DNA of 64,000 bases. It comes from an uncultured Alphaproteobacteria bacterium (lineage in GTDB: Bacteria; Pseudomonadota; Alphaproteobacteria; Micavibrionales; Micavibrionaceae). The position numbers and the translations under genes were made by a program. Under the pieces are notes generated by a model that ran no database searches, was not told where the DNA came from, and saw only the letters and a program-made list of their open reading frames with translations. Location: NCBI GenBank assembly GCA_937934135.1, contig CALHAW010000001.1, forward strand, positions 62,001 through 126,000, written 5' to 3'. Shown piece after piece: positions 11,677 through 43,860 of this stretch (position 1 is its first letter; every line of letters begins with the position of its first letter).

Positions 11677-13926
<2,250 letters not shown>

Positions 13927-24063: not shown

Positions 24064-24927
24064 ATGACAAAGCGTAAACCACTCTATGATGGCAAGGCCA
24101 AAACCATTTATGAAGGACCAGAGCCAGGCACAGTAATACAATATTTTAAAGATAATGTGTCTGCCACATCCATTGCTCCGGATAAGAAGGGGACTGTTTC
24201 AGGCAAGGGGGTTTTAAATAACCGAATTTCTGCCCATATTATGACGAAATTAGAAGCCGTTGGCGTGCCGACGCATTTCATTCGCTCGCTCAATATGCGT
24301 GAACAATTAGTACGTAAAGTCGATATTGTACCTTTAGAAGTCGTTATCCGTAATGTTGCCGCGGGCGGTGTATGCCGTCACTTGGGCGTCAAAGAAGGTC
24401 AACGCTTTGCACAGCCTTTGGTTGAGTTTTTCTATAAGAATGATGAATTAAATGATCCGATTGTGAGCGAACAGCATATTTATGCGTTTAATTGGGCTGA
24501 TCCTTATGAATTAGAAGAAATGGTGATGCAGGCGCTTCGTGTGAATGATTTTCTTTCTGGTTTATTTGCGGCCATTGGTCTGCAGCTCGTTGATTTTAAA
24601 TTGGAATTTGGTCGCCTATGGGGAAAAGATGATGAGCTTTACATTATTCTGGCCGATGAAATCTCACCGGATAATTGCCGCCTTTGGGATATGAAAACTG
24701 GCGAAAAAATGGATAAAGACCGCTATCGCTATGATTTAGGGGATTTGGTTGAAGGATATCAAGAAATTGCTAAACGTTTGGGATTAATCCCCGAAGCAGG
24801 GATTATCCAAGGCGGAAATATTGATGAAGCCGCCGCAGAAGGCCTTGTTCATATTGAAAACGAGCTGTCGCGTGAGCGCAGATTGCGGGCGATTAAAAAA
24901 TCGCCACAAGGGACGAAAAAAAATTAA
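24064..24927 (+). CDS. purC: Phosphoribosylaminoimidazole-succinocarboxamide synthase
   Basis: ATP-dependent purine biosynthesis enzyme (SAICAR synthase). Family motifs present are [13 protein letters not shown] at the N-terminus, [10 protein letters not shown] in the CAIR/ATP region, and [14 protein letters not shown] and [10 protein letters not shown] in the C-terminal half. The ATG has an AGAGGAT ribosome binding site. The 287 residues exceed the minimal form by about 40 because of a basic, Glu-rich C-terminal tail. In many alphaproteobacteria purC is followed by purS-purQ-purL before bolA-grxD; those genes are not here. Confidence 0.95.
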
Positions 24928-24951
24928 AAACATTAAAAGTAGGAAAAAGAG

Positions 24952-25716
24952 CTAAGAGGTAAATTGCTCTTTTAAGATACGCTCTTCCAGATTTTGATCT
25001 GGATCGAAAAGAAGTGTGCATCCATGACTGTCTGCTTGCTTGATTTCAACGGATGCAACATGGCGGATTTCTGTTGAATCTGCGGTGGCGCTCACGGGAC
25101 GTTTTTCTGGATTGTTAATCTCTATCTTGACACGTGAATGGGACGGCAATAATGCGCCCTTCCACCGTCGTGGGCGAAAGGCGCTAATGGGGGTTAATGC
25201 CAAAACATTTGCCGAAAGCGGGATGATAGGGCCATGGGCAGAAAGATTATACGCCGTACTCCCTGCGGGGGTTGCCAATAATATACCATCACAAACCAGC
25301 TCGGGGATGCGTTCAATATTATCAACGGATATCTTCAGTTTTGCGGCTTGGCGGGTCTGCCTTAACAGGGCGACTTCATTAAAAGCGATCGCATCATATT
25401 CTGTCCCTTTTTCATCAATGGTTTTCATTTGAAGGGGGAATATCTCAACTTGATGAGCATCATTGAGGCGTTCCAGTAATTTTTCGGGGCGGTAGGGATT
25501 CATCAAAAACCCAACAGAACCACAATTCATGCCATAGACAGGAATGCCGTGATTATAGGTTTGATGTAATGTTTCCAACATTGTTCCATCACCGCCAATG
25601 GCCACGGCGATATCCGCCTCATCCAATGCAACGTTTTTATAATATTTTTGTAAATTATGAAGGGCGTCTTGTGCCTCTTTGGTTTCTGCGGCAATGAAGG
25701 TTAATTTGGGCGGCAT
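24952..25716 (-). CDS. nadK: NAD kinase
   Basis: Phosphorylates NAD+ to NADP+. The diagnostic GGDGTMLETLHQTY motif is at about residues 41-54, followed by the N-x-G-x-V-G-F-L-M-N motif and the ATP/NAD site GDGILLATPAGSTAYNLSAHGPI. The 254 residues are normal for the alphaproteobacterial form. The ATG follows the pyrE stop codon with no gap, so it is translated from the same message as pyrE and the S24 regulator upstream. Confidence 0.94.
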   Translation of the reverse strand: MPPKLTFIAAETKEAQDALHNLQKYYKNVALDEADIAVAIGGDGTMLETLHQTYNHGIPVYGMNCGSVGFLMNPYRPEKLLERLNDAHQVEIFPLQMKTIDEKGTEYDAIAFNEVALLRQTRQAAKLKISVDNIERIPELVCDGILLATPAGSTAYNLSAHGPIIPLSANVLALTPISAFRPRRWKGALLPSHSRVKIEINNPEKRPVSATADSTEIRHVASVEIKQADSHGCTLLFDPDQNLEERILKEQFTS

Positions 25717-26394
25717 TTAAGATGCTTTCTTAAAATTATCGGCCCATTCTTTGGGCGCGTTCAGAAAACTTTCGAAAGATGTAATAGTTTTATCATCAAA
25801 ATAATCTTCTTCTTTTATGACATCCAATACATCCCACCATGTAGTCAATGACAGCGGCGCCATATCCATTTCTTGAAAAGATTTTTTTGTTTCCGGATAA
25901 ATGTCATAAGAAAAAATAACAAAACTATTTTGAAGACGCATTCCCGCTTCACGCAGTACATCAATAAATATTTTTTGTGAACTGCCCACATTCATTAAGT
26001 CTTCAACCAGAATAACTTTTTTATTTTCACCTTCTACATGTCCTTCAATTTGTGACATACGCCCGTGACCTTTTGGTTTTTTACGAACATAAAGCATAGG
26101 CAGATTAAGACGCTCTGCAATGAAAGCAGCATAAGGGATACCTGCAGTTTCCCCGCCCGCCACATAGTCAACATCAAGGTTTTTAATCATCTGCGCGGCA
26201 TAATCCATAAGGATTGAACGCTCTTCAGGGAAGGCAATAGGGCGGCGGCAATCCACATAAACAGGGCCAATAGCGCCAGAGGTATATTGAAATGGTTCTG
26301 CCGTATTAATTAAGATTGAATTTGTATCTAATAAAATCTTTGCGGCTTCTTTTGCCATATTTTTTGTTTCGTTTTTTGTCATTGGCTTACCCAT
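25717..26394 (-). CDS. pyrE: Orotate phosphoribosyltransferase
   Basis: Pyrimidine biosynthesis: orotate plus PRPP to OMP. Family features are FQYTSGAIGPVYVDCRRPIAFP at the N-terminus, the AGGETAGIPYAAFIAERLNLPMLYVRKKPKGHG stretch, and the PRPP loop. The loop reads VEDLMNVGSS, where most PyrE have a T-T-x-G-G-S core, so the phosphate-binding residues differ from the norm. Three starts are possible (26412, 26394, 26382). 26394 has GGGAAG at good spacing; 26382 gives an ATGA overlap with the regulator stop. Either way translation is coupled to the regulator. Confidence 0.88.
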   Translation of the reverse strand: MGKPMTKNETKNMAKEAAKILLDTNSILINTAEPFQYTSGAIGPVYVDCRRPIAFPEERSILMDYAAQMIKNLDVDYVAGGETAGIPYAAFIAERLNLPMLYVRKKPKGHGRMSQIEGHVEGENKKVILVEDLMNVGSSQKIFIDVLREAGMRLQNSFVIFSYDIYPETKKSFQEMDMAPLSLTTWWDVLDVIKEEDYFDDKTITSFESFLNAPKEWADNFKKAS

Positions 26395-27026
26395 ATTATT
26401 CTTCCCATCCATGCGATGTCTTGTGTTTGTATTTTTGTGTTTTCATGATCAGATTTGAATGTGCATATTTCAATTTGCGTTGCTGTTTGTTTGATTAATT
26501 CTTTGATCATGATGTCGCTATTCTTTGTTTTCACAATAATGCGGTCGCCTGCACGTCGTTTGGATTTTGGTGATATGATAAGAATGTCCCCTTTGCGGTA
26601 TATGGGTTTCATCGAATTGTCATTTATCTCTAATGCATAAATACCATTATCATTTTTCTTATTTAATTCAGGGTAGGGCGTTTCATTCCAATGATGGCCT
26701 TGAGGGCATCCTTCCTTATCAAAATACCCATTTTCACCGGCTTGGGTAAAATTAATAAGCGGAATTGTTAGCTCATTTGATTGAACAGGCTCGTTTAAAT
26801 CATCTACCAGAGAAACAAAATCTGACATGGTCGCCCCCGTTGCGGCCAATATACGCGAGATACTTTCTGTTGATGGCCATCTTGGTTTTCCGTCAGGACC
26901 ATGACGTTTACTTTTATTGAATGAAGTCGCATCAAGCCCAGATTGTTTGGCAAGACCAGAGGGGCTGTAACCAAAGCTTGTCGCAAGGCGATCAATCGCG
27001 TGCCAAATTTGTTCATGAGTGAGCAT
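26379..27026 (-). CDS. LexA/S24-type transcriptional regulator (HTH plus peptidase S24 domain)
   Basis: A 215-residue two-domain repressor-like protein. Residues about 1-75 are a helix-turn-helix domain of a type common in alphaproteobacteria (YSPSGLAKQSGLDATSFNKSK, with PRWPSTESISRIL). Residues about 90-215 are an S24/LexA-like domain with a plausible self-cleavage pair Ala96-Gly97 in FTQAGENG, nucleophile Ser138 in NDNSMKP and general base Lys175 in IMIKELI. All catalytic elements are intact, so RecA-stimulated cleavage is possible. It overlaps pyrE, and its own promoter carries the palindrome that also marks the phage-like promoters, so it is the best candidate master regulator of the 30.7-44.9 kb module (inference). 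Confidence 0.87.
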   Translation of the reverse strand: MLTHEQIWHAIDRLATSFGYSPSGLAKQSGLDATSFNKSKRHGPDGKPRWPSTESISRILAATGATMSDFVSLVDDLNEPVQSNELTIPLINFTQAGENGYFDKEGCPQGHHWNETPYPELNKKNDNGIYALEINDNSMKPIYRKGDILIISPKSKRRAGDRIIVKTKNSDIMIKELIKQTATQIEICTFKSDHENTKIQTQDIAWMGRIIWVSQ

Positions 27027-27099: not shown

Positions 27100-27107
27100 A
27101 AAATAAT
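27100..27107. repeat. Target site duplication, left copy (AAAATAAT)
   Basis: An exact 8-bp copy of 30620-30627 directly abutting the left inverted repeat. Eight base pairs is the typical duplication length of the IS1595 family. Confidence 0.9.
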
Positions 27108-27132
27108 CCTGATATTATACTTTGCGTACCCA
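27108..27132 (+). repeat. Left terminal inverted repeat of the IS1595 element
   Basis: 25 bp beginning CCTGATATTATACTT and ending CGTACCCA. It differs from the right repeat at two adjacent bases only, TG instead of GA, exactly where the right copy has its promoter-like TTGACG. Confidence 0.9.
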
Positions 27133-27144
27133 ATTTAATCTAAA

Positions 27145-27160
27145 GATAGTAAATACTATC
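27145..27160. repeat. Perfect palindrome upstream of the ParB-fold passenger gene
   Basis: GATAGTA-AA-TACTATC, 51 bp before the start codon of the passenger gene and just inside the element. It could be an operator for the passenger operon; the ParB-like protein itself might bind it. Nothing else supports this. Confidence 0.45.
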
Positions 27161-27211
27161 AATTTCTTTTATTCTTTAGCCTGATTATTTTAGTAAAAAT
27201 AAGGATAAAAG

Positions 27212-28483
27212 ATGAAATACGGTATTAAGGGTGCAAGCATGGTGTCTCCCTCCAAAGTTTTTTTGGATCAAAATAATCCGCGCCATGAACCTTTTGAAGA
27301 CCAAGAAGAAGCTATTAACTATTTATGTAAGAACGATAAAGTTTTGGCGATAGCAAAAGACATTGTTTTATTAGGCTTAAACCCACTAGAATTATTTGCA
27401 ATCATTAAAGATGAAAACAATACTTATTTCACGGCCGAAGGAAATAGAAGGCTTTGTGCGATTAAACTTTTAAACGACCCTGACCTTGCGCCATCAAGTC
27501 AACAAAAAGAATTTAAGAAAACTGCAAAGAACTGGAAACCTATTAAGGAGCTGTTTTGTGTTGAATTTAAAAATAGAGAAGAAGTGCGTATCTGGCTAGA
27601 TAGAATACACGCAGGTGAAAATGAAGGCAGAGGGCGCAGACAATGGAACGCTGACCAAAAGGCAAGAAATAGTGGATATGATAAAAATAATTTAGCGTTA
27701 CAAATCTTAGATATTGCGGAGAAACAAGGGATTATTACCGCAGAGGAGCGCAAAGGCAGATTGTCAACTGTGCAAAGATATTTAGGTAATCCTGTTATGA
27801 GGGACACACTCGGCCTCAACGAACCTAGCGCGGAACAGGCAAGCACAGATGTTGTAGAAAAAGACTTCAATATTATGCTTACAAAATTTGTTTCTGATGT
27901 CGCACAGAAAAAAATTACAACCAGAGTTGATAGTGACGGAATAAAAAAATATTCCCGCAACCTCTCAAAATCTGAAGGTGTTACAGGAGCAAGAGGAACT
28001 CGCCGTGAATTAACAAAAACTGTGGGTGCAAAAAAAGCGCGTCCACAAAAACCTACAGAGCCAGAAAGGCCAGAAAAAATAGAACCCAATAGGAAGCTAG
28101 AGCAGTCCTTAAAAGCTATACCAAGCTATAAATTGCAAAGACTGTACTTTTCTTTATGTGATATTCCACTTGAAAACCATACTCCTTTACTTGCAGTTGG
28201 GGCTTGGACATTTTTGGAAACATTAACTGCGCTCAACGGAAGGAAGACCAACGATCCTTTTTCAAACTTTTTAAGTGCGGACAGGCTTGCTAAAATGGGG
28301 TTTGGGGACAAGAAAAAAACAAAGGGCATAAGGACTGTAATTCAGCGCATTTCTGACATGGGTAACGTTACCAAACATGATGAAAAATCAACGTATTTAA
28401 ACCAAGAACAACTGGCAAATGATTTTGAAACACTTTCCAGTTTATTAGTCGCATTATCTGATGGAGCAAAAGGAAAAACATAA
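27212..28483 (+). CDS. ParB/sulfiredoxin-fold protein (IS passenger gene)
   Basis: A 423-residue protein. The first about 130 residues resemble the ParB N-terminal nuclease/CTPase fold: V-S-P-S-K-V-F-L-D-Q-N-N-P-R, then the ParB box E-G-N-R-R-L-C-A-I-K-L-L. A charged central region (about 135-290) with Lys/Arg/Pro-rich linker follows, and a helical C-terminal domain (about 295-420) that I do not recognise. It is not a canonical chromosome-partition ParB, being encoded without ParA inside an IS. A good AAGGAT ribosome binding site precedes the ATG. It is probably co-transcribed with the methylase 71 bp downstream; together they may be a defence, anti-restriction or maintenance cassette (inference). 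Confidence 0.7.
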   Translation: MKYGIKGASMVSPSKVFLDQNNPRHEPFEDQEEAINYLCKNDKVLAIAKDIVLLGLNPLELFAIIKDENNTYFTAEGNRRLCAIKLLNDPDLAPSSQQKEFKKTAKNWKPIKELFCVEFKNREEVRIWLDRIHAGENEGRGRRQWNADQKARNSGYDKNNLALQILDIAEKQGIITAEERKGRLSTVQRYLGNPVMRDTLGLNEPSAEQASTDVVEKDFNIMLTKFVSDVAQKKITTRVDSDGIKKYSRNLSKSEGVTGARGTRRELTKTVGAKKARPQKPTEPERPEKIEPNRKLEQSLKAIPSYKLQRLYFSLCDIPLENHTPLLAVGAWTFLETLTALNGRKTNDPFSNFLSADRLAKMGFGDKKKTKGIRTVIQRISDMGNVTKHDEKSTYLNQEQLANDFETLSSLLVALSDGAKGKT

Positions 28484-28554
28484 AAAATAGTTCTGGCCGT
28501 GCGAATCAAATTCTGGTAAAATGGTGATATCAATAGCTTTCACAAGGATTCATC

Positions 28555-29433
28555 ATGGCTCATATTTTTTCTCCTTTAAGATACCCAGGCGGCAAAAGCT
28601 GTTTAAAGCCATTAATGAGTTCAATATTAAAGGCAAATAAATTTCAACGTTACCACTACGCTGAACCCTATGCTGGCGGGTGCGGATTAGCCTTATCGTT
28701 GCTTTACAATGGCCACGTAAGCGAAATACACATCAATGATATTGACCCTTCTATTTGGAGTTTTTGGAAGTCTGTCCTTTATTACACTGATGATTTAATT
28801 GATTTAATTAACAATACAGAAATCAATATGAAGGAATGGGAAAAACAAAAAGAAGTTCAATTAGAAGAAGATATTAAAGACCCTCTTAGCTTAGGTTTTT
28901 CGGCGTTCTTTTTAAACCGAACTAACAGGTCTGGAATTATTAAAAAAGCTGGAGTAATTGGCGGTAAAGACCAAAAAGGAAATTATAAAATGGATTGCCG
29001 CTTCAATAAGGAAGATTTAATTCATCGTATAGAGCGTATTAAGAAATATAAAACACAAATTAATTTAACTCGAAAAGATGCAATCGCTTTTATGAAGGGC
29101 AACAAGAATATGCCAGAAGAAACGTTCTTTTGCATTGATCCACCTTATTACAATAAGGGTTCTTGTCTATACACAAGCTTTTATCAACCGTGGGATCATC
29201 AAAAAGTATCAGAAGCAATCCTAGAAATGAAATACCCTTGGGTGGTAACTTATGACAATGCGGATGAAATAAAAAATCTTTATAAAAAGAGAAGACAGTT
29301 TTGCTTTGATATAAACTACTCTGTTCAAACTAAACGAGTTGGTACAGAACTTTTAATTGCATCAAAAGGATTGGTAATACCAAAAGATATAAGAGAAAAA
29401 CAAATACATCCAATAAAAAGAATTGCTGCTTAA
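28555..29433 (+). CDS. D12-class adenine-N6 DNA methyltransferase (Dam-like, IS passenger gene)
   Basis: Transfers a methyl group from S-adenosylmethionine to adenine N6 in DNA. The SAM-binding motif is LRYPGGKS (residues 8-15), the target-recognition region lies in the middle, and the catalytic motif is DPPY (Asp195-Tyr198). These are the hallmarks of the D12/Dam class; the closest Dam specificity would be GATC, but this cannot be proved from sequence. At 292 residues it is complete. It has an AAGGA ribosome binding site. No restriction endonuclease is encoded in the element, so it acts as an orphan methylase or with the ParB-fold protein. Confidence 0.9.
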   Translation: MAHIFSPLRYPGGKSCLKPLMSSILKANKFQRYHYAEPYAGGCGLALSLLYNGHVSEIHINDIDPSIWSFWKSVLYYTDDLIDLINNTEINMKEWEKQKEVQLEEDIKDPLSLGFSAFFLNRTNRSGIIKKAGVIGGKDQKGNYKMDCRFNKEDLIHRIERIKKYKTQINLTRKDAIAFMKGNKNMPEETFFCIDPPYYNKGSCLYTSFYQPWDHQKVSEAILEMKYPWVVTYDNADEIKNLYKKRRQFCFDINYSVQTKRVGTELLIASKGLVIPKDIREKQIHPIKRIAA

Positions 29434-29436
29434 AAG

Positions 29437-29604
29437 TTAAAGTTTAGCCTTATCCTTTCTGGGGAATATTTGACTCATGGCCTTTTCAAACGTTTCGCCA
29501 GATTCATCACATTCAGTTTCACGCGCATACTCAATAAACCTCTCTTTTTGAGATAGGTTCTGCTTAACTTTTTTCTTCGATTTTTTAGTTTTTTTAACAG
29601 ACAT
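29437..29604 (-). CDS. IS1595-associated small accessory protein
   Basis: A 55-residue ORF starting at 29604, with a Lys-rich N-terminus and the segment F-I-E-Y-A-R-E-T-E-C-D-E-S-G-E-T-F-E-K-A-M. Short proteins with a similar F-x-x-x-A-R-E-x-x-C-D-E-x-x-x-x-F signature are common directly after IS1595 transposases. The start overlaps the transposase stop by 11 bp, so translation is coupled. Its function is unknown. Confidence 0.75.
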   Translation of the reverse strand: MSVKKTKKSKKKVKQNLSQKERFIEYARETECDESGETFEKAMSQIFPRKDKAKL

Positions 29605-30556
29605 TTCTTTCGCCAGTCGTTTGGTAGGTTAGGCGTTTTCCTACGAAACCTTTAAGCAATGCAGTTGCTCGGTCTTCGTCATTGTAACCTAACTTCTCTC
29701 TATGGTTATAACGAAAATCAAATTCTGATAAATAGCGGTGTAAATGACTTTCGCCACAATGTTGATATATCCCCTTCATGCCGCGCTTAAACAACCCAAA
29801 ATAACCTTCTGCGCTGTTGTTATGAACATTGCCACGAACATATTCGCCAGAGGCGTGTTTAACGCTGTGATGTTCTTTAACGTGTGCTTCTGCGCCAGTA
29901 TATAAACGGCTTTCGTCAGTATGTAACTCACTTTCTTTAGCTACATTATTAACAATAATGTTTGCGACGGTGACTTTATTGGCTCTATCTACATGAAATG
30001 ATTTAATTCTTCCCCCGCGCTCGACTAAAGAAACGATGGAACGCTTGTGTGCGCGTTTTGCTCCTCCTTTACCTTTCGGATATGGAATACCAAGTGCGTT
30101 ATGAGTTGGGGGCTTACCACTTTTCTTACCATGATAAGTTTCATCAGCTTCAACGATTTGACCCTCACCACCTAAAATACCTATTGAGCCATCCTTCATG
30201 GCTTCACGTATTCGATGCGATAAAAACCAAGCTGATTTAACGGTGATACCTAAAACACGCGCTAATTGGTTTGAACTAATACCTTTTTTACTTGAGGTTA
30301 CTAAAAAGATAGCTTGCAACCATACGTGCATTTTTATATGGCTTGATTCAAAAATAGTCCCCACCTTAACAGTGAAAGGTTTACGGCAAGAATAGCACTT
30401 ACGGACTCCAATTCTGGTACTTTTACCTTTTAATTCGCCTATGCGTTCGCACTCACCGCAATGAGGGCAAGTAACGCCGTTAGCCCATATATGTTTTTCA
30501 ACAAATTTATAGGCGGCCTTTTCATCGTGTAAGTGTTTTGCAGATAGCATAGACAT
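29594..30556 (-). CDS. IS1595-family transposase (ISXO2-like)
   Basis: 320 residues. An N-terminal zinc ribbon (Cys30, Cys33, Cys54, Cys57 in CPHC ... CYSC) is followed by a helix-turn-helix (SSNQLARVLGITVKSAWFLSHRIREAM) and the DDE-type catalytic domain with Asp138 in EADETYHGKKSG, a second acidic site in HTDESRLY and the HNNSAEGYFGLFKRGMKGIYQH region. The ATG has an AAGGAG ribosome binding site. The right inverted repeat supplies a -35 (TTGACG) with TACTAT 16 bp on, so the transposase promoter is partly inside the repeat. No frameshift is seen. Confidence 0.95.
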   Translation of the reverse strand: MSMLSAKHLHDEKAAYKFVEKHIWANGVTCPHCGECERIGELKGKSTRIGVRKCYSCRKPFTVKVGTIFESSHIKMHVWLQAIFLVTSSKKGISSNQLARVLGITVKSAWFLSHRIREAMKDGSIGILGGEGQIVEADETYHGKKSGKPPTHNALGIPYPKGKGGAKRAHKRSIVSLVERGGRIKSFHVDRANKVTVANIIVNNVAKESELHTDESRLYTGAEAHVKEHHSVKHASGEYVRGNVHNNSAEGYFGLFKRGMKGIYQHCGESHLHRYLSEFDFRYNHREKLGYNDEDRATALLKGFVGKRLTYQTTGERNVC

Positions 30557-30594
30557 TGGTTTTCTCCTTATATTCTATATAGTACAGGAGTATG

Positions 30595-30619
30595 TGGGTA
30601 CGTCAAGTATAATATCAGG
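30595..30619 (-). repeat. Right terminal inverted repeat of the IS1595 element
   Basis: 25 bp, matching the left repeat at 23 of 25 positions. On the minus strand it contains TTGACG, the -35 of the transposase promoter. Confidence 0.9.
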
Positions 30620-30632
30620 AAAATAATCCTAT
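30620..30632. promoter_or_regulatory. Right target duplication and right part of the split operator
   Basis: 30620-30627 is the second AAAATAAT copy. Removing the element and one duplication joins 27095-27107 to 30628-30632. The joined 18-mer matches the palindrome ATAGGATTATAATCCTAT at 15 of 18 positions, with a perfect right half (ATAATCCTAT). The insertion therefore cut a candidate operator upstream of the phage-like module. Today the intact half-site remains at 30623-30632. Confidence 0.6.
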
Positions 30633-30700: not shown

Positions 30701-31189
30701 ATGACTAAAAACCCGAAACAACAAATACCAAAACAACAAATAATAGAAAAAACCACAGGAACGCCTTTTGAAGATATAGAAGAAGCATGGTTTTGGTTTG
30801 TACAGGCACAACAGGCGCGCAATGAAGGGGCGCGTATTCGCGCAGGACTTTCAACAATAGAACGCCCCTGTGAACCAGCTGATATTCTTAAAATTCTAGA
30901 TCGTCTTTACCGTCAACGCATGTTGCTGCGGGATCATCTTTTGGTATTACGCCATTATGGGCGCCGCCAATTTGCACCAGATCCATACCGCGTAAAAGAA
31001 GCGCGCGCGCATTTTCTATGGAACGAAGCCTTTAAGAAAATGGAACCTGTTTTTATTCGCAAAGGAATCGTGCGGGATAAAATTTTTAACCAAAAGACGT
31101 TAACAACACCTCATCCTAATAAATATTGGACATCAGGAGCAACGGTTTATAACGGGCTACCTGCTGGCTTTCAGGAGCGTATAAAATGA
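30701..31189 (+). CDS. Conserved protein at start of phage-like module
   Basis: 162 residues, predicted soluble and helical, with a Gln/Lys-rich N-terminus and a conserved-looking core (EEAWFWFVQAQQARNEGARI ... RLYRQRMLLRDHLLVLRHYG). I do not recognise a named family. It is the first gene after the operator-bearing promoter and its start codon overlaps the weakest operator copy. It overlaps the next gene by 4 bp (ATGA). Position at the head of the operon would suit an early regulatory or packaging-related role, but nothing in the sequence proves it. Confidence 0.75.
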   Translation: MTKNPKQQIPKQQIIEKTTGTPFEDIEEAWFWFVQAQQARNEGARIRAGLSTIERPCEPADILKILDRLYRQRMLLRDHLLVLRHYGRRQFAPDPYRVKEARAHFLWNEAFKKMEPVFIRKGIVRDKIFNQKTLTTPHPNKYWTSGATVYNGLPAGFQERIK

Positions 31190-31569
31190 CCCAAAAACAA
31201 CAATCAATCTGGATTGTTTTTACGGGTAAGACGGATATTGCATGGCTTAAAATTTTAAAGCCAGGCTTTCGTCATTGTTACGCCCTTATTCATGATGGGT
31301 ATAAATGGATATCGATTGATCCGTTAGCATCGCATACGGATATTGAAATTCATCATCATATATCACCAGATTATGACTTACCCGGCTGGTTGGAATGTCA
31401 GGGAAACCAAATCCTGCATATTCCGTATCTTTATAATCATCGTAAATCTGCCCCCTTCGCATTTTTTTCATGTGTTGAAATGATGAAACGCCTGATTGGA
31501 TTGCATCGGTTTTTCATCATGACGCCATGGCAGTTATATAAATTTTTAAATAGTAAAAAGGAGAAATAA
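31186..31569 (+). CDS. Phage-associated protein, possible papain-like (permuted NlpC/P60) fold
   Basis: 127 residues. An N-terminal F-R-H-C-Y-A-L-I motif with a candidate catalytic His, a W-I-S-I-D-P-L strand, and a later F-S-C-V-E-M-M-K-R-L-I-G-L helix with a candidate catalytic Cys are arranged as in permuted papain-like amidases (His before Cys). The C-terminal MTPWQLYKFL segment is common in phage homologues of this kind. The enzymatic assignment is inference from this pattern. It overlaps the preceding gene by 4 bp and precedes the small pre-portal gene by 1 bp. Confidence 0.65.
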   Translation: MTQKQQSIWIVFTGKTDIAWLKILKPGFRHCYALIHDGYKWISIDPLASHTDIEIHHHISPDYDLPGWLECQGNQILHIPYLYNHRKSAPFAFFSCVEMMKRLIGLHRFFIMTPWQLYKFLNSKKEK

Positions 31570-31570
31570 T

Positions 31571-31816
31571 ATGGGTAGTTTATTCAAATCCCCCAAAAAA
31601 CCGCCGCCGCAACCTGCGCCGCGCCCCGTTACCGCGCCAACGCCCACTATAACAGAGGTCGCCGATAAAACAGACAATGAAATTCGAAATGAATCACGAG
31701 AACAAAGCTTGTTACGCCGTAACCGCGGACGCTTAGGTACAATTAACACTGGATTTACAGGGTTTTTAAGTCCCGTAAAGACCAACGACCCCCGTAAAAC
31801 ATTATTAGGAGAATAA
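31571..31816 (+). CDS. Small pre-portal phage protein
   Basis: 81 residues with a Pro/Lys-rich N-terminus (KSPKKPPPQPAPRP) and a basic C-terminal half with R-R-N-R-G-R-L-G-T and D-P-R-K-T-L-L-G-E. It is the last small gene before the portal. In T7-like phages the small tail-assembly protein gp7.3 holds this position and also has a basic tail; that equivalence is positional, not sequence-proved. It has an AAAAGGAGAAAT ribosome binding site and ends 1 bp before the portal gene. Confidence 0.7.
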   Translation: MGSLFKSPKKPPPQPAPRPVTAPTPTITEVADKTDNEIRNESREQSLLRRNRGRLGTINTGFTGFLSPVKTNDPRKTLLGE

Positions 31817-31817
31817 G

Positions 31818-33365
31818 ATGGCCTTTAATAATCAACAATCAGATAATCAAGACAGACTGAATAATATTGTTCAGCGTTACGAACAGGCCAAATCACGCCG
31901 CAGTCATTGGGAAAGCCATTGGCAGGACTGCTATGATTATGCCCTGCCAGAACGCGGTAATTTCACTCATTTTGATATCCCTGGAAGCCGTAAAACGCAG
32001 AATCTATATGATGGTACCGCCATGGATTCTGTCGACCAATTAGCGGCAAGTTTGCTCGGCAATTTAACGCCGCCATGGACAGGGTGGTTTGGATTTAAAC
32101 CAGGGCCTGAATTAAATAAACAAGAGGCACAAGATATCGCGCCCCTTTTGGAAGATATTGGTAAAACGATACAGGCACATCTTGACCGCTCTAACTTTAA
32201 TGTAGAAATGCATCAATGTTTTTTAGATCTTGCTGTTGGTGGTACAGCAACGCTTTTCTTTGAAGAAACCGCGCCGGGTGCTTTTTCGGCCTTTAAATTT
32301 ACGTCTGTTCCCCTTCATGATGTAATATTAGAGGAAGGAGATAAAGGATTTTTGGATAACGCCTTTCGGGTATTGTCTCTTACCTTGGCGCAGATAGAAA
32401 AAAAATACCCCGCGGCGGAAATTCCTGAACGGATATACCGTGAAGGAACAAAAGATTCACAAGCGCGCTTTAAGGTGCTTGAATCTGTTCTACCTGAAAA
32501 AGGCGTTTATGCCTTTACGGCAATTTTATTGGAAGACACAACGCCTATTTTACTTTTCGAAGGTGTGTTTAACGAAAGCCCCGCTATTTCTTTTCGCTGG
32601 ATGAAATCATCAGGGGAAGTATATGGGCGCTCTCCTGTGATGAAGGCGCTCCCCGATATTAAAACCGCTAATAAAGTCGTTGAGCTTATTTTAAAGAATG
32701 CCTCTATTGCGGTGACTGGGATTTGGCAGGCTGATGATGATGGCGTGTTAAACCCGGCGAATATTGAGCTTAAGCCCGGCGCTGTCATTCCTAAGGCGGT
32801 TGGATCACAAGGGTTAAAGGCGCTTGAAATGCCAGGGCGCTTTGATGTGTCTGAATTAATCTTGAATGATTTACGCGGACGTATTCGCCATGCCTTGCTT
32901 ACGGATAAGCTTGGCCCCGTGGCCGGTGGACGCATGACCGCAACGGAAATCATTGAACGTTCTTCTGAAATGGCGCTTCTTTTGGGTGCAACCTATGGCA
33001 GGTTACAATCAGAGCTTTTAACACCGCTGATACAGCGCGCTTTTTCCATTTTAAAACGCCGCGGCGAAATTCCTGATATTGAATTAGATGGGCGTTATGT
33101 GGCGCTGGATTACCGTTCACCCTTGGCACGGATTCAGGGACAAAAGAACGTGCAGAATATTTTGCTCTGGCTTGATTCTTTATCGGCGATGGGCGCTGGC
33201 GCGGCGGCTTCGGTTAATGTACCAAACACTGTAAAGCATTTGGCCGAAGCGCTGGGTGTTCCCAATGATCTTATTCAAAAAGAAATCATCCCCGCGCAAA
33301 TTATTTCAGAAGATATCTTGCTTAATGATGAAATAGGGGAGGGTAGCGATGTCCTTCCTCAATAA
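31818..33365 (+). CDS. Phage portal / head-tail connector protein (T7 gp8-like)
   Basis: 515 residues, the typical size of podovirus connectors, which form the twelve-fold ring at the capsid vertex for DNA packaging and tail attachment. Family features include the N-terminal SHWESHWQDCYDYALPERG, RKTQNLYDGTAMDSVDQLAASLLGNLTPPWTGWFGF, the FRWMKSSGEVYGRSPVMKALPDIKTANKVVELILKNASIA stretch, and GRMTATEIIERSSEMALLLGATYGRLQSELLTPLIQRAFSIL. It has an AGGAGAATAAG ribosome binding site. It overlaps the next gene by 17 bp. Confidence 0.93.
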   Translation: MAFNNQQSDNQDRLNNIVQRYEQAKSRRSHWESHWQDCYDYALPERGNFTHFDIPGSRKTQNLYDGTAMDSVDQLAASLLGNLTPPWTGWFGFKPGPELNKQEAQDIAPLLEDIGKTIQAHLDRSNFNVEMHQCFLDLAVGGTATLFFEETAPGAFSAFKFTSVPLHDVILEEGDKGFLDNAFRVLSLTLAQIEKKYPAAEIPERIYREGTKDSQARFKVLESVLPEKGVYAFTAILLEDTTPILLFEGVFNESPAISFRWMKSSGEVYGRSPVMKALPDIKTANKVVELILKNASIAVTGIWQADDDGVLNPANIELKPGAVIPKAVGSQGLKALEMPGRFDVSELILNDLRGRIRHALLTDKLGPVAGGRMTATEIIERSSEMALLLGATYGRLQSELLTPLIQRAFSILKRRGEIPDIELDGRYVALDYRSPLARIQGQKNVQNILLWLDSLSAMGAGAAASVNVPNTVKHLAEALGVPNDLIQKEIIPAQIISEDILLNDEIGEGSDVLPQ

Positions 33366-33612
33366 AATACAAGAACGCTTTGCGTTGATGAAATTTATAT
33401 CAAACAGCGATCAAAAAAATATTGATCGGCTTTTTACCCGTGTTTTCCAAAGTGAAGATGGTCAAAAAATATTGGCGTATTTACACCATATCACAACGGA
33501 TCGCGCCATTAGCGTACAAGCAACGCAAGAGCATTTGCGCCACCTCGCGGGGCAACGCGCCCTTGTTCAAACCATTCAAAAATTGGCTGATCGTGGCCGT
33601 TTTATTAACTAA
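33349..33612 (+). CDS. Small phage protein, Bbp19-like
   Basis: 87 residues, helical, of the kind encoded between portal and scaffold genes in Bordetella BPP-1-type and related podoviruses (Bbp19 family). Landmarks are LFTRVFQSEDGQKILAYLHHIT near the middle and a basic HLRHLAGQRALVQTIQKLAD helix at the end. The start overlaps the portal gene by 17 bp. The family role is unknown; the assignment rests on position and general pattern. Confidence 0.65.
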   Translation: MSFLNKIQERFALMKFISNSDQKNIDRLFTRVFQSEDGQKILAYLHHITTDRAISVQATQEHLRHLAGQRALVQTIQKLADRGRFIN

Positions 33613-33624
33613 AAGGAGAAAAAT

Positions 33625-34284
33625 ATGACCCCTAATGAATCCCAAAAAGAAGAAAATCAAACATTGTTAGATAATGATATTCCTGCAAAATTTAAAGACC
33701 CTAAAACCGGCGCTGTGCGTTTGGATGTGATGATGAAGTCTTATAAAGAGCTTGAGCAAAAAATCTCTAAAACGCCTTCTGCCCCAAAAACGGCAGAAGA
33801 ATATAAAGTGGATTGCTCTCACGGTTTATTTGATATTGATACACAGATGAATGAACGCTTACATGAAAAAGGCTTTAGCAATGATCAAGTGCAGTTTGTC
33901 TATGATTTGGCCGCAGAAAAAATGATCCCTATGGTCATGGAAATGGCTGGTGATTTTCAGGCTGACCGTGAAGTTGAAAAATTAATTGAACATTTTGGCG
34001 GCGTTGAAAAATGGCAAGAAGTGTCCCGCCAACTTTTGGCCTATGGACAAAAAAGCCTGCCTGCAGATGTGCTTGATTCCCTATCCAGCTCTTATGAAGG
34101 CGTGATTGCGCTTTATAATATGATGCAAGGAAAAGAACCAACCATGACAGCGAACATGGACAATGTATCAAGCAGTGAGATGAATGATATTACATCAATG
34201 ATGCGTGATCCAAAATATTGGCGCGATAAAGATCCATCTTTTGTTGCAAAAGTGACCGAAGGGTTTCAAAAACTATATAAGTAA
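33625..34284 (+). CDS. Capsid assembly scaffolding protein (T7 gp9-like)
   Basis: 219 residues, acidic and helix-rich. The N-terminus has the usual scaffold opening (P-A-K-F-K-D-P-K-T-G-A-V-R-L-D-V-M-M-K-S-Y-K-E-L-E-Q-K); the C-terminus (D-P-K-Y-W-R-D-K-D-P-S-F-V-A-K-V-T-E-G-F-Q-K-L-Y) resembles the capsid-binding tail of this family. Scaffold proteins guide procapsid assembly and leave before DNA entry. It has an AAAAGGAG ribosome binding site and lies upstream of the capsid gene, interrupted only by the reversed PilZ gene. Confidence 0.85.
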   Translation: MTPNESQKEENQTLLDNDIPAKFKDPKTGAVRLDVMMKSYKELEQKISKTPSAPKTAEEYKVDCSHGLFDIDTQMNERLHEKGFSNDQVQFVYDLAAEKMIPMVMEMAGDFQADREVEKLIEHFGGVEKWQEVSRQLLAYGQKSLPADVLDSLSSSYEGVIALYNMMQGKEPTMTANMDNVSSSEMNDITSMMRDPKYWRDKDPSFVAKVTEGFQKLYK

Positions 34285-34371
34285 AAACTAAATCTTATGC
34301 TGCTTGTGGTGGGATATGCCAAAACATATCCTCCCGCTTGCAGGCATTCTTATCGTTGAATAGAAGGTTTG

Positions 34372-34755
34372 TTATTGTTGGGAATTGGCAAATTCTTGGG
34401 TGACGTAATCATCAACTACCATCTTAAAGCGTCTATCGACTTCTTGCGTTAGTGGATTAAATTGCACGACAAACTGGTCTCTATCTTTACGAAGGATACG
34501 ACCCTTATGCGTTACATCCATAACACGATCTGCCAGTTTGAATTTCATGGTGACGTCTTTTGTGTCGTCCACACCGAAACTGCGATCATCACTGTTTAAA
34601 AGAATGCCGCCCTTGCTCCAGTTTTTTACGGGGTAGGCTTTTCCGTCAATAACGGCCACGCATGAATCCATCTCACGGCGTTCATGGGAACGACGAGAGT
34701 CAAAATCATCATTGCTGGCGCTTACTTTCAAGCTATCGATTAGATTTTCAAACAT
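34372..34755 (-). CDS. PilZ-domain protein inside the phage-like module
   Basis: 127 residues. The PilZ cyclic-di-GMP-binding signature is present: an arginine cluster R-R-S-H-E-R-R-E (about 21-28), followed by a N-W-S-K-G-G-I-L-L loop (about 45-53; D/N-x-S-x-x-G motif) and beta strands up to about 105. It is the only minus-strand gene in the module, lying between the scaffold and capsid genes, with its 5' end facing the capsid promoter. It could be a host-derived insertion or a control factor responding to cyclic-di-GMP. No signal peptide or membrane segment is seen. Confidence 0.82.
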   Translation of the reverse strand: MFENLIDSLKVSASNDDFDSRRSHERREMDSCVAVIDGKAYPVKNWSKGGILLNSDDRSFGVDDTKDVTMKFKLADRVMDVTHKGRILRKDRDQFVVQFNPLTQEVDRRFKMVVDDYVTQEFANSQQ

Positions 34756-34825
34756 CTACAGAATCTCCTACTTCTCTTAATATATATACATAAGACTTTT
34801 TTTCAAGATAATTCGAAAATAATTC

Positions 34826-34854
34826 TTGACATCATAGGATTTAATTCCTATTAT
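34826..34854 (+). promoter_or_regulatory. Capsid-gene promoter with embedded palindromic operator
   Basis: TTGACA (34826-34831), a 17-bp spacer and TATTAT (34849-34854) form a near-ideal sigma70 promoter. The spacer is filled by ATAGGATTTAATTCCTAT (34834-34851), an imperfect palindrome with the same ATAGGA...TCCTAT arms as the copies near the S24 regulator. The capsid start codon is 253 bp downstream. The leader (34855-35106) holds no convincing gene; an 11-codon ORF at 34922 preceded by AGGAAAAG may be a leader peptide. Confidence 0.75.
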
Positions 34855-35106
34855 AATTACATCAACACCAGAATTGCGTCTTTCTTACTATTCTATTCTG
34901 CCCTAAAGCAGGAAAAGTTTCATGATTAAGAAAGAAAATTTTGGTTCTTTGAAGCCTTAATTAGATAACGGCGCTCGCTTATTGTGCGTGTGTCGCCTTA
35001 TTCCCCTTCAAAAACAGCTCATATTGCGCGCCGTCACCATGATGAGAACGCGTCCGTGACTGCACCTTCTTAAATTTAAACCAAACACCCATAGAAAGGT
35101 AAATAT

Positions 35107-35940
35107 ATGTCAACATCTATTGATCAGGCTTTCATTAAACAATTCGAACGCGAAGTGCATGAAGCCTACCAACGTCAGGGGTCCAAACTTCGGAACACTG
35201 TGCGTACCATTAACCAAGTAAAAGGTTCTTCTGCTGTCTTTCAAAAGGTCGGCAAGGGAACGGCGTCGACAAAACCAACAAATGGCATTGTCCCTATTAT
35301 GAATCTTGACCATTCAAATGTTGAATGTTTGTTACAGGATTATTATGCAGGGGATTGGATTGACCGTCTGGATGAATTAAAAACCAACATTGATGAACGT
35401 CAAGTTATTGCTTCGGCCGGGGCGAGCGCATTGGGCCGTAAAACTGATGAGTTCATTATTGACGCATTGGCCAATTCAACCACAAATGTTATTGCCGATG
35501 GTAATACAGGCCTGACAAAGGAAAAAATCCTAACGGCTTTTGAAACTTTCGGTGAAAGCGATGTGCCAGATGATGGCCAACGTTATGCCGTTATTGGTTG
35601 GAAACAATGGAGCGACCTTCTGCAGATTGATGAATTTGTTAATGCGGATTATGTCGGCGAAGGAAACTTACCTTTTGCGAACAGTACACAGGCAAAAATG
35701 TGGCTCGGCACAATTTGGATTCCCCATTCTGGTCTTCCTATTGATGCCAATGATGTGCGCTCTTGTTTCTATTATCACAAAACCGCAATCGGTCATGCCG
35801 TTGGCAGTGATGTGCAAACAGATGTTTCATGGCACGGTGATCGCGCCGCACATTTTGTGAATAACATGATGTCACAAGGCTCTTGCCTCATTGATGATAG
35901 CGGCGTTGTTGTCATTGGTTGTGATGAAACACCAGATTAA
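35107..35940 (+). CDS. Phage major capsid protein
   Basis: 277 residues, matching a podovirus-type capsid protein family found in marine and alphaproteobacterial phages. Landmarks are IDQAFIKQFEREVHEAYQRQG at the N-terminus, VPIMNLDHSNVECLLQDYYAGDWIDRLDELK, and RVAVIGWKQW-like RYAVIGWKQWSDLLQIDEF. It has its own strong operator-bearing promoter and a strong terminator downstream, as expected for the most abundant virion protein. It has an AGAAAGG ribosome binding site. Confidence 0.9.
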   Translation: MSTSIDQAFIKQFEREVHEAYQRQGSKLRNTVRTINQVKGSSAVFQKVGKGTASTKPTNGIVPIMNLDHSNVECLLQDYYAGDWIDRLDELKTNIDERQVIASAGASALGRKTDEFIIDALANSTTNVIADGNTGLTKEKILTAFETFGESDVPDDGQRYAVIGWKQWSDLLQIDEFVNADYVGEGNLPFANSTQAKMWLGTIWIPHSGLPIDANDVRSCFYYHKTAIGHAVGSDVQTDVSWHGDRAAHFVNNMMSQGSCLIDDSGVVVIGCDETPD

Positions 35941-36211
35941 ATAGAGAGTTTCTTTTTTAATCATATCAATATTGATACGGATGGTATGGCTCAGATAACG
36001 TAAAAAATGATCATGAGTATTTCAGGCAGCACCCTCACGGTAACAATCCTTTCAATAGGATAGACGTTATATTCTATACATCGTCGTTACATATAAACGT
36101 GATAGAGGCTTGAGCGTTGGCGCAGTAATTCCTTCCTGACACGCCAGTTGGCTCGCTTCACTTTCTTTATCAAAAAAGAAAACTGACTGAAGACGTTTCC
36201 CGTATCAATCG
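35941..36211. other. Intergenic region after the capsid gene
   Basis: No gene is supported in the roughly 270 bp before the capsid terminator. It contains TCCTTTCAATAGGA (36047-36060), an imperfect repeat of the operator arms but without the full palindrome. A transcribed untranslated 3' region of the capsid message is the simplest reading. Confidence 0.4.
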
Positions 36212-36226
36212 GGGCATTAAATGCCC
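36212..36226. repeat. Hairpin before the capsid terminator
   Basis: GGGCAT-TAA-ATGCCC, a perfect 6-bp stem with a 3-base loop, 7 bp before the terminator stem. It may stabilise the 3' end of the capsid message. Confidence 0.5.
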
Positions 36227-36232
36227 TGCAGG

Positions 36233-36270
36233 AACGGCTTCCTGTTTAAACGCAGGGAGCCGTTTTTTTT
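36233..36270 (+). terminator. Terminator downstream of the capsid gene
   Basis: A 12-bp stem (AACGGCTTCCTG with CAGGGAGCCGTT, one G-T pair) closes an 8-base loop and ends in eight T residues. T7-like phages also terminate transcription just after their capsid gene, so the architecture is conserved. Downstream tail genes would then need readthrough or another promoter. Confidence 0.88.
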
Positions 36271-36366
36271 AAGAATTTAATAAAGAAAAAAGAACTGCGT
36301 GATCAGGTCAACAAAAGCGATCAATCTGATATTGACAGTGATGTTAGCAAAGGGCAGTGTGACCAA

Positions 36367-36516
36367 ATGCACGCAGAAAATACGAAAGAATGTAGTGATG
36401 TAACACGTGATCAAGGGAAAAGAGCGAGCGCCATATATAGGGTACGTGCCATGGCGCGTTATGTTGCTTGTTTAGCAGGAAAACCGGAAGATCAATGGCC
36501 ACCGCCTACATTATAA
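36367..36516 (+). CDS. Short phage-module ORF upstream of tail tubular A
   Basis: 49 residues from the ATG at 36367. The frame stays open upstream to about 36252, but there is no ATG, GTG or TTG there, so a non-standard start such as CTG could give a longer acidic N-terminus. The C-terminus R-V-R-A-M-A-R-Y-V-A-C-L-A-G-K-P-E-D-Q-W-P-P-P has a coding look. It lies between the capsid terminator and tail tubular A. Function unknown. Confidence 0.5.
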   Translation: MHAENTKECSDVTRDQGKRASAIYRVRAMARYVACLAGKPEDQWPPPTL

Positions 36517-36609
36517 TCATTATAAATTTTTTAATTATTATACCCGCTATTGAGCGGGTTTTTTATTTTTAAATCACAATACACACACATAACATTAAGG
36601 AGAATTACC

Positions 36610-37176
36610 ATGGCTTTGAATGATATAGCCCTATGTTCGCGCGCATTGATAAGATTAGGTGCGGCGCCCATTACATCTTTTACTGATCAAACAGCAGAAT
36701 CTGAAATTGCGGGTGCGCTTTTTGGCCCAATACGTGATGCTTTATTATCAGCTTATCCGTGGACATTTGCGACAGGTCAAATTGTGTTGACGGAATCAAA
36801 CACACCGCCGGTTGCGGATTACCAAAAATCATTTCAACTGCCCAATGACTTTCTGCGCGCTATTTCTGCGGGGGGCGCGGGGCGCGGGCGCGGTGTTAAT
36901 TACCGTATCGCCCGTAACATGTTGCACACTAACGCAACAGAAGTTATTTTAACTTATATTTTCAGACCCGAAGAAGAAGAATTTCCACCGTTCTTTGATA
37001 TGGCACTAATTAATCGCTTGGCGGCTGAATTTTGCATTCCTATCACGGAAAGCACATCACGCGCCGAAGCAATGTACCGTTTGGCAGAACGCGAATATGA
37101 ACGCGCCCGCCAAATTGATGCACAGCAAGACAGCCCCAATGCGATTGAAGACTTTACTTTGATTGATGTGAGGTAA
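36610..37176 (+). CDS. Tail tubular protein A (T7 gp11-like)
   Basis: 188 residues, forming with gp12-like protein the short non-contractile tail tube. The typical opening MALNDIALCSRALIRLGAAPITSF is followed by the F-G-P-I-R-D-A-L-L-S-A-Y-P-W-T-F-A strand, a YQKSFQLPNDFLRA segment and an ALINRLAAEFCIPIT helix. Start ATG at 36610 has AAGGAGAATTACC; the longer frame upstream lacks such a site. It ends 2 bp before tail tubular B. Confidence 0.9.
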   Translation: MALNDIALCSRALIRLGAAPITSFTDQTAESEIAGALFGPIRDALLSAYPWTFATGQIVLTESNTPPVADYQKSFQLPNDFLRAISAGGAGRGRGVNYRIARNMLHTNATEVILTYIFRPEEEEFPPFFDMALINRLAAEFCIPITESTSRAEAMYRLAEREYERARQIDAQQDSPNAIEDFTLIDVR

Positions 37177-37178
37177 CC

Positions 37179-39077: not shown

Positions 39078-39096
39078 TAAAAAAAGGAGAAACATC

Positions 39097-39633
39097 ATGG
39101 GAAGTATTATTCCTATCGCCACCCAAGCCATTGGTTTGGCCAAGACAGTCGGTACAGTCGCCACTGTTTTAAATCAAACAACAGATTTTATAAATCACCG
39201 CAATGATCGTGGCGCTGAACAGGCACTTGATCAATTACGGGATCAACAAAAACTGGAAGAACGCCGCGCAACTGAAAAGGCAAATACACAGCGCCAAGAA
39301 ATAGGCTTGCGTGCAGAAGAAGCAGAGCAAAAACGCCGCGCTGCTTTAAAACGCGCTGTATCCCGCCAACGCGCCCGTTTTGGTGGTGCAGGGATAAGCA
39401 GTAATAACGGGTCATCAGAAGCGGTCTTATTGGGTTTATTTGATGAATCAGATGAAGAACGCTCAAACCGTGATCGCCTTGATACGCTGCGCTTGCAATC
39501 TATTGATAATAATCTAGCGAATGTAAAACGTGTAAATACGCTTCAACGCACTCAGGCAGAAGGCCGCAATAGCCTTGCGCGGAATTTAAGAACACGCAAA
39601 AGCGCGCAAGACCTGATTGACAGTATTTTTTAA
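39097..39633 (+). CDS. Internal virion-like protein
   Basis: 178 residues. A small Ala/Val/Thr-rich N-terminal segment (about 5-30) is followed by a long charged coiled coil (about 35-100) and an Arg-rich C-terminal half with FGGAGISSNNGSSEAVLLGLFDE, a stretch typical of small internal or ejection proteins (T7 gp14 position) in podovirus-like prophages. The larger gp15 and gp16 equivalents are missing, so the ejection apparatus appears reduced. It has an AAAGGAGAAAC ribosome binding site. Confidence 0.75.
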   Translation: MGSIIPIATQAIGLAKTVGTVATVLNQTTDFINHRNDRGAEQALDQLRDQQKLEERRATEKANTQRQEIGLRAEEAEQKRRAALKRAVSRQRARFGGAGISSNNGSSEAVLLGLFDESDEERSNRDRLDTLRLQSIDNNLANVKRVNTLQRTQAEGRNSLARNLRTRKSAQDLIDSIF

Positions 39634-39668
39634 AACAAAAATAAAAATTAATAATTAAGGACAATAAA

Positions 39669-41690: not shown

Positions 41691-41700
41691 GGATTAAATC

Positions 41701-42000
41701 ATGACAAACTTTACCAATAAAGTGCTTATTTTTCTAAAAAATGGCATGGAAAAAACAATGCAATCTTATGATCACTTCACCAATGATGAGAACAAAGAAA
41801 GCAAAGATTTTGATTTTCAAAAACATCATATGGCCTGTAAACAAGCCATCGTTCATTTGGAATCCCTCTTAAAACTTTATGAAAGAAACATGACGCTTGA
41901 TCATGACGATGAGGATAAAAAATCAGACACAGGGAAAAACTTGCAGTCATTAATCGATGAAGCCTGCCTGCGTATTAAAAATGATAATAAAAAAATATAA
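41701..42000 (+). CDS. Small acidic protein at the terminase-small-subunit position
   Basis: 99 residues, helical, with many Asp, Glu and Lys residues (TNDENKESKDFDFQKHHMACKQ, DDEDKKSDTGKN). In T7 the small terminase gp18 (about 89 residues) lies directly before the large terminase, so this could be its equivalent. I see no clear helix-turn-helix or other TerS signature, so the call is positional. It has a TAAGGATTAAATC ribosome binding site. Confidence 0.5.
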   Translation: MTNFTNKVLIFLKNGMEKTMQSYDHFTNDENKESKDFDFQKHHMACKQAIVHLESLLKLYERNMTLDHDDEDKKSDTGKNLQSLIDEACLRIKNDNKKI

Positions 42001-42061
42001 ATAATATCAAATAGATGGCGGTTGCCATGACTTATGATAATCATGAAAGGGTTGAAATCTC

Positions 42062-43534: not shown

Positions 43535-43549
43535 AAAAGGACTTTAACC

Positions 43550-43837: not shown

Positions 43838-43860
43838 ATAAACGATAATAGGAGAACTCT

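Follow-up and report, generated by a model that had tools for sequence, protein, structure and literature searches.

What kind of unit lies at positions 27108-30619 of the window, the stretch of 64,000 nucleotides from an uncultured alphaproteobacterium analysed here, and what would two passenger genes be doing inside an insertion sequence (IS)? The unit is a 3,512-bp element of the IS1595 family that holds, from left to right, gene A, gene B, a small open reading frame (ORF) of 55 amino acids (aa) and the transposase gene. By profile match of both genes, A and B are PD-Lambda-5, a known anti-phage system, and the element can probably be regarded as a mobile defence cassette. Its parts are listed below.

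27100-27107, no strand: left copy of the 8-bp target duplication, AAAATAAT, an exact match to 30620-30627
27108-27132, plus strand: left terminal inverted repeat at the cargo end, agreeing with the right one at 23/25 positions
27212-28483, plus strand: gene A, 423 aa, PD-Lambda-5_A (PADLOC profile; structure model and fold comparison)
27230-27643, plus strand: predicted ParB CTPase-type domain of A, residues 7-144, with the conserved box EGNRRLCAIK (VIA-align to 7bnr; alignment columns)
28112-28477, plus strand: predicted HEPN-like C-terminal domain of A, residues 301-422, with the motif G384-N-x-T-K-H389 (VIA-align to 2hsb)
28555-29433, plus strand: gene B, 292 aa, PD-Lambda-5_B, Dam-like adenine methyltransferase type, DPPY at residues 195-198 (PADLOC, PHROG)
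29437-29604, minus strand: 55-aa ORF overlapping the 3' end of the transposase gene (ORFs compared by eye)
29594-30556, minus strand: IS1595-family transposase, 320 aa, intact (PF12762, PF12760)
30595-30619, minus strand: right terminal inverted repeat, transposase side, 23/25 identical to the left end
30620-30627, no strand: right copy of the 8-bp target duplication, AAAATAAT, an exact match to 27100-27107

Terminal inverted repeats and an exact 8-bp target duplication, the marks by which IS1595 elements are recognised, delimit the unit. In a combined scan for inverted repeats and target duplications its ends scored 18/20, while among 129 control stretches one reached at least 15/20 and none reached 16/20. 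Even when up to 3 mismatches are allowed, the end sequence occurs at just these two sites in the 1.72-Mb assembly (97% complete), in which a reversed control pattern of it gave zero matches; gene A and the transposase are each present in single copy, and the element is the sole copy found there. The transposase comprises the DDE_Tnp_IS1595 domain (PF12762; 3.5e-30, residues 5-153 of 153) and a zinc ribbon (PF12760; 3e-09), and the element is more AT-rich than its surroundings (GC content 37.0% against 41.8% for the window). The first-pass annotation, made from the letters, had drawn this IS1595 unit with near-perfect 25-bp ends, an exact duplication and two non-transposition genes, and on all these counts it was right: its coordinates fit the element exactly once the duplication is left off, the ends agree at 23 of 25 positions, AAAATAAT is duplicated exactly, the transposase is intact with both domains, and the two genes encode a ParB-fold protein (27212-28483) and a protein of adenine-methylase type with DPPY (28555-29433). 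Two genes dispensable for transposition are enclosed by the ends, and related transposases carry other cargo, so the unit is a transporter IS (tIS), a term which PMC3129680 and PMC8496243, in the passages available, credit to Siguier et al. 2009.

The right end also contains TTGAC, which may be a candidate -35 box of the transposase gene; among the 48 delimited elements of the family survey described below, this pentamer is located in the transposase-side end of 40 and in the far end of 16. Promoter-like sites in the region are not more frequent than in shuffled sequence. As a separate observation, ORFs of around 50 aa overlap or adjoin the 3' end of the transposase gene in the window (29437-29604) and in L033 (8724-8888) and L034 (9195-9344), with a common QKERFI-type motif. 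The 55-aa ORF of the window has no Pfam family above cut-off, and such small ORFs could possibly encode an accessory protein of the element.

The identity of the cargo was established by profile comparison. Protein A matches the PADLOC family PDLC04000 (PD-Lambda-5_A) with 1.9e-159 over residues 11-419 of 423, and all 25 PADLOC families listed for it are versions of PD-Lambda-5_A. Protein B matches PDLC04018 (PD-Lambda-5_B) with 3.4e-123 over residues 1-284 of 292, and its gene starts 71 bp past the end of A, in the same order as in PD-Lambda-5. A type II methylase model (MTase_II) also scores high for B (2.8e-112), as do PHROG 56 (1.5e-49) and the solved relative 7m6b (3.5e-16), while neither protein could be assigned to a Pfam family at E up to 1. 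RYPGGK and DPPY are kept in all five aligned B sequences, and EPYAGG in four with EPFAGG in the fifth. Protein A is 18-57% identical to 50 homologues aligned; scans with the single protein gave no relative, and a profile from a four-homologue alignment was then used.

According to the available passages of Vassallo et al. 2022 (PMC9519451), PD-Lambda-5 was discovered by functional selection and protects Escherichia coli against phages, changing plating or plaque size for all but one of ten phages; it was cloned in a host without the mrr region, and it is described as a compact version of restriction-modification plus abortive infection (RM+Abi). PMC10799925 and PMC12824646 repeat or list the system, and the passages of all three papers give no mechanism. 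The first-pass annotation had called the pair of genes unusual; the pair itself is known, and it is carriage by an IS that is unusual. Since Mrr attacks methylated DNA, the use of a cloning host lacking mrr suggests that the methylase of PD-Lambda-5 is active.

Recurrence of the pair in other IS1595 elements had been proposed as the test of the annotation, and the pair does recur. Homologues of A were gathered at 75 loci (47 from genome contigs, 21 from viral contigs and 7 from phages, plasmids and two relatives, a few of them duplicates), and the 73 with a usable A reading frame, of which 69 also have B (43+20+6), were scanned for ends. An IS1595 transposase is found at six of the 75, and besides the window four of the 73 are complete IS1595 elements that enclose the pair and are flanked by an exact 8-bp duplication:

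L079, Brevundimonas sp. AAP58: 3,577 bp, ends 20/20
L085, Mesorhizobium sp. WSM4311: 3,600 bp, ends 17/20
L064, Rhizobiaceae metagenome-assembled genome: 4,182 bp, ends 17/20
L060, Mesorhizobium sp. AR07 plasmid: 3,816 bp, ends 19/20

In all five elements, the window counted, the pair faces the transposase, which lies on the opposite strand. No further locus among the 73 has ends of at least 16/20. L083 (broken transposase, ends not found) and L093 (transposase near the pair, delimiting ends absent) were rejected as complete elements, and pairs of repeat-like sequences scoring 14-15/20 at L055, L065, L069, L075, L092/L121 and L128 were set down to chance, for these loci have no IS1595 transposase and their ends are unlike those of the family. 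The sister of the Brevundimonas copy, L077, has neither element ends nor transposase. In genome-wide terms, an A-type gene occurs in 3 of 142 genomes of the order, the other two copies having no such ends or transposase, and A-type matches occur in 12 of the 385 genomes of a class-wide sample; of the 12 A-type places fetched from the 11 class genomes other than that of the window, 6 come with a B match, and two of the 12 are also among the contig loci. IS1595 carriage of PD-Lambda-5 is accordingly a recurring minority.

How often the pair has entered such elements was approached with two trees, one of 58 A proteins and one of 58 B proteins, in which six rows bear the IS label (L083, with its broken transposase, included). 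Sixteen loci were left out as duplicate, partial, without B or very divergent (L055, L058, L066, L076, L081, L082, L086, L087, L095, L103, L104, L105, L108, L117, L119 and L121). Five changes between IS-borne and other context are needed, and five are forced by well-supported branches in both trees; the long branch of L060 makes its placement in the A tree unsure, and without L060 at least four changes follow by row count. The simplest reading of these trees would be repeated capture of PD-Lambda-5 by IS1595 elements. The nearest relatives of the window copy by path in the A tree, L061 and L062 (57% and 55% identical), are both outside IS1595 elements. When 19 transposases were placed in a tree, three changes sufficed for the PD-Lambda-5 label, a number as low being reached in 24 of 500 shuffles. 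The closest transposase found, that of L032 from the same genus, is 92% identical and sister to that of the window; its element holds a DUF3800 gene in place of the pair. Here the cargo has been swapped and the transposase retained.

The insertion itself can be deciphered from relatives in which the site is empty. From the 64 genomes that gave a match, ten relatives were chosen and the region of the adjoining phage-like genes was compared; the gene order NAD kinase, pyrE, S24 repressor and phage-like genes is kept in all ten; purC adjoins it in eight and lies beyond the fetched stretch in the other two. Local departures are about 1.9 kb of extra sequence between repressor and pyrE in L170 and a repressor match confined to the first 75 residues in L171. 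Nothing element-like was found between the repressor and the first phage-like gene in any of the ten, and when the window flanks are joined without the element and one duplication copy, they align across the insertion point with all ten, the intergenic region of L168 being identical to the joined flanks over 22 bases spanning that point. The element has a phage-type repressor gene on one side and, on the other, the gene that opens a conserved phage-like cluster; it lies immediately upstream of a conserved CTTGACA, which stays intact and is perhaps the -35 box of the rightward operon. Around the repressor and this rightward promoter region, TAGGATTATA is seen three times (at 27060, 30647 and 30688). 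The three copies look like operators of the S24 repressor, and the element now parts one from the other two.

The architecture of A was modelled from 51 sequences with a mean predicted local distance difference test (pLDDT) score of 90.9 and a predicted template modelling (pTM) score of 0.58. The N-terminal domain of the model has a ParB fold, best seen against the CTP-analogue-bound ParB 7bnr (VIA-align Z 9.3, root-mean-square deviation 2.6 over 95 residues; Foldseek E 3.5e-4). The C-terminal helical domain matches HEPN proteins best in VIA-align (2hsb, Z 8.3; 5yep, 7.8; AbiA, 7.2; Csm6, 6.7), HepT-type toxins and AbiA among them at Z about 7-8. When the domain was folded alone (pLDDT 92.3), its top 19 rows were mostly HEPN-type chains, judged by title or by known assignment. 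The HEPN reading rests on this VIA-align comparison, which was made after Foldseek; a search of solved structures by sequence with the A profile found nothing. Glycine, threonine and histidine of the GNxTKH motif are invariant in 36 aligned sequences, and the usual ParB box, GERR, reads GNRR (within EGNRR) in the alignment columns of A. Protein A is modelled as a ParB CTPase-type domain joined to a HEPN-like domain.

Taken together, we give a probability of about 0.68 to the reading that the unit is an IS1595 transporter IS with PD-Lambda-5 as cargo and serves as a mobile defence cassette, B marking self DNA and A sensing unmarked DNA and responding to it. The transposase would move the whole unit by its ends, so that defence travels as cargo, and B would methylate the host DNA and thereby mark it as self. 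The ParB-type domain of A, perhaps loaded with CTP, would bind or slide on unmarked DNA such as that of an incoming phage, and this loading would switch on the HEPN-like domain, whose RNA cleavage or other toxic act would make the phage fail. The published RM+Abi description fits this layout of A and B. Coupling of HEPN proteins with restriction-modification has precedent, because many pairs of HEPN RNase and restriction-modification systems were predicted by bioinformatics, as stated in the passages of PMC9296519 available; the ParB-type sensor is the unusual part of the proposed mechanism.

Several observations weigh against this reading, some of them on carriage and some on mechanism. Most PD-Lambda-5 loci are outside IS1595 elements, four of the 73 scanned loci being delimited, and no IS1595 transposase was found at any of the 12 A-type places in 11 other class genomes. 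In the trees the IS label shows no more clustering than shuffled labels do (93 and 85 of 500 shuffles were as low), and the five changes of context may be losses as well as gains. For the C-terminal domain of A Foldseek returned nothing under E 1, and a Z of 7-8 for a helical bundle can, by the tool's own caveat, reflect a common arrangement. The canonical HEPN motif Rx4-6H was not found in A, where GNxTKH stands with no conserved arginine at the canonical distance; because glycine replaces the arginine, RNase action of A is unsure. CTP turnover by A may be lost, because its GERR box reads GNRR.

Among the rival explanations, plain restriction-modification is unlikely. Some ParB-fold proteins are described as nucleases, and A could be a ParB/Srx-type endonuclease which cleaves DNA that B has left unprotected; a methylase and a partner of DNA-binding type do share one operon here. 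It is opposed by the absence of any endonuclease family in A (Pfam at E up to 1; PADLOC), where a new nuclease type is still conceivable, by fold matches of A to ParB and HEPN-like domains, and by the designation of PD-Lambda-5 as an RM+Abi version in the part of PMC9519451 available. The idea that the pair serves the element and not the host, A poisoning cells which lose B and its methylation, appears improbable. A self-marking enzyme with a toxic partner would stabilise the element too, and many related elements hold single genes with toxin-like HEPN, PIN or NYN features; against this, the pair also occurs outside IS elements, in phages, plasmids and chromosomes, and PD-Lambda-5 came from a selection for phage protection (PMC9519451, same passages). 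Such addiction and defence are compatible rather than exclusive.

Methylases near phage genes often protect phage DNA, and the element is located in a phage-like cluster, from which it might be argued that B is an anti-restriction cargo methylating the neighbouring cluster or the element itself for survival in new hosts. We hold this very unlikely: the empty site in all ten relatives implies that the cluster lives without the element, and A would be left without a role. That the IS simply landed near an existing PD-Lambda-5 locus, with chance ends enclosing both, is scarcely credible even though PD-Lambda-5 is usually not inside an IS, for an exact 8-bp duplication and matching ends lie outside the pair, removal of the element restores the empty site, none of the 129 control stretches reached 16/20, and the same layout is repeated in four further elements. 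The first-pass annotation had left defence, anti-restriction and element maintenance side by side; defence is the one supported, through the PD-Lambda-5 profile match.

Does the family carry cargo in general? The transposase has matches, weak ones included, in 24 of 95 relatives and in 39 of 385 class genomes (Brevundimonas query, E up to 1e-60), and for the survey 40 class regions were fetched, which represent 41 of the 51 class transposase matches. Of 66 transposase places above 500 bp, 48 could be delimited as elements (ends at least 15/20, exact 8-bp duplication) and 18 could not. At least 800 bp lie beyond the transposase in every one of the 48 (median 1,518), and none of them is a bare IS without cargo. 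After the five PD-Lambda-5 elements were set aside, 43 were left, 14 from relatives and 29 from the class.

Thirteen of the 43 (L038, L178, L180 with two, L184, L186-L189, L192, L194, L198 and L200) carry, on the same strand as the transposase, a gene of one diverse family (15-25% identical to its first row) with an invariant R-x4-H and a near-invariant W-x3-E, which we take to be the HEPN pattern; a second type with the motif RNxxxH is found in L177, L190 and L197, so that genes with HEPN-type motifs occur in 16 of 43 elements. Of the nine HEPN-motif seeds, all chosen by eye, the first 20 class regions supplied eight and the relatives one; their profile added four members, three at E <1e-11 and L200 at just 0.001. 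L174, linked to the second cluster by BLAST, has no such motif and was left out of the count. The loose motif alone is not diagnostic: 24 of 248 cargo ORFs contain it, and 12 of these 24 lie outside both clusters. All Pfam matches of the family are below cut-off, with one sub-threshold match to HEPN_Cthe2314; the HEPN assignment of this cargo family is a motif-level claim. L032 (ends 14/20) and L045 (13/20), both outside the 48, were added by hand to the motif scan. L180 presents a side observation at 4764-9423, two different IS1595 elements abutting with overlapping duplications, each with its own HEPN-motif gene.

Other cargo is varied. DUF3800 is found by profile in L032, L035 and L039 and by eye in L181; L037 carries a PIN_10 protein with a helix-turn-helix-like partner below cut-off, and L036 reads by eye as PIN. 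PADLOC, run on 20 cargo proteins besides those of the window, gave the candidate PDC-S42 in L048 (1.1e-47), and an NYN-like protein is seen in L185 (0.0016). A further observation is L046 (1871-4763), an IS1595 element whose cargo may be a restriction-modification pair, a C5 cytosine methylase without its start and a partner of 246 aa. Most of the remaining cargo examined bears no family name.

The surroundings of the insertion are of interest in their own right. A podovirus-type cluster at 30701-46361, with a left flank at 24064-27026, comprises genes for portal, major head protein, tail, large terminase and endolysin. Its major head protein is matched in 97 of 135 genomes of the order and in 75 of the 98 good ones, as a rule by a single copy and for the most part at 65-85% identity, and the neighbourhood lies beside or near pyrE/NAD kinase in all ten relatives checked. 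The cluster does not resemble an ordinary prophage, and the view that the element simply sits in a young one was dropped, because the genes beside it are order-wide and syntenic; the pattern is as for a vertically inherited element resembling a gene transfer agent, and the cluster is a candidate gene transfer agent or domesticated phage. In L168 (G003, same genus) the cluster at 9768-12567 of the fetched stretch is without most structural genes past residue 59 of the head protein.

Defence systems are gained and lost fast, and prophages, plasmids and large islands are mostly regarded as their carriers. An element of 3.5 kb with one transposase and a complete two-gene system is a minimal and directly testable vehicle, and one route by which immunity genes can move between genomes. 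Reading what lies between IS1595 ends could be a source of new defence candidates, and the ParB plus HEPN-like layout turns a short RM+Abi description into testable steps: mark, sense and act. We would go further tentatively, at somewhat less than even odds, in suggesting that IS1595 transporter IS elements are general, overlooked immunity vehicles of small size which time and again take up and exchange single immune or toxin genes (HEPN, DUF3800, PIN, NYN, restriction-modification) as well as PD-Lambda-5 and spread them across Alphaproteobacteria, and that PD-Lambda-5 itself is a methylation-gated ParB clamp with a HEPN-like effector; we know of no described defence system which senses DNA by such a gated clamp.

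Overall, transporter IS elements and PD-Lambda-5 are each already known, and the presence of the pair inside further IS1595 elements appears new as far as our searches reach, as do the different cargo beside the closest transposase, the cargo found in all 48 delimited elements and the modelled two-domain layout of A: no paper joining IS1595 with passenger genes, cargo, defence systems, ParB-like proteins or HEPN in this way was found in the literature searched, which excludes most subscription papers, and the passengers of Siguier et al. 2009 may overlap. Compared with the IS1595 tIS described in the passages cited above, the element shares the transposase, inverted repeats, 8-bp duplication and passenger genes, and differs in carrying an entire defence system that is already known, a passenger present in five elements. 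Compared with PD-Lambda-5 in the available part of its description, both genes, their order and the profile matches agree, and so does the phage-related setting, the published system being a prophage one and the pair here lying beside a phage-like cluster; the differences are that IS1595 ends with a target duplication enclose it and that A is 18-57% identical to the homologues aligned. Finally, the two end domains of A resemble by model the folds of the ParB, Noc and KorB CTPases and of HEPN proteins such as HepT, AbiA and RnlA, and depart from both in being joined in one protein, with a GNRR box and without the canonical Rx4-6H.

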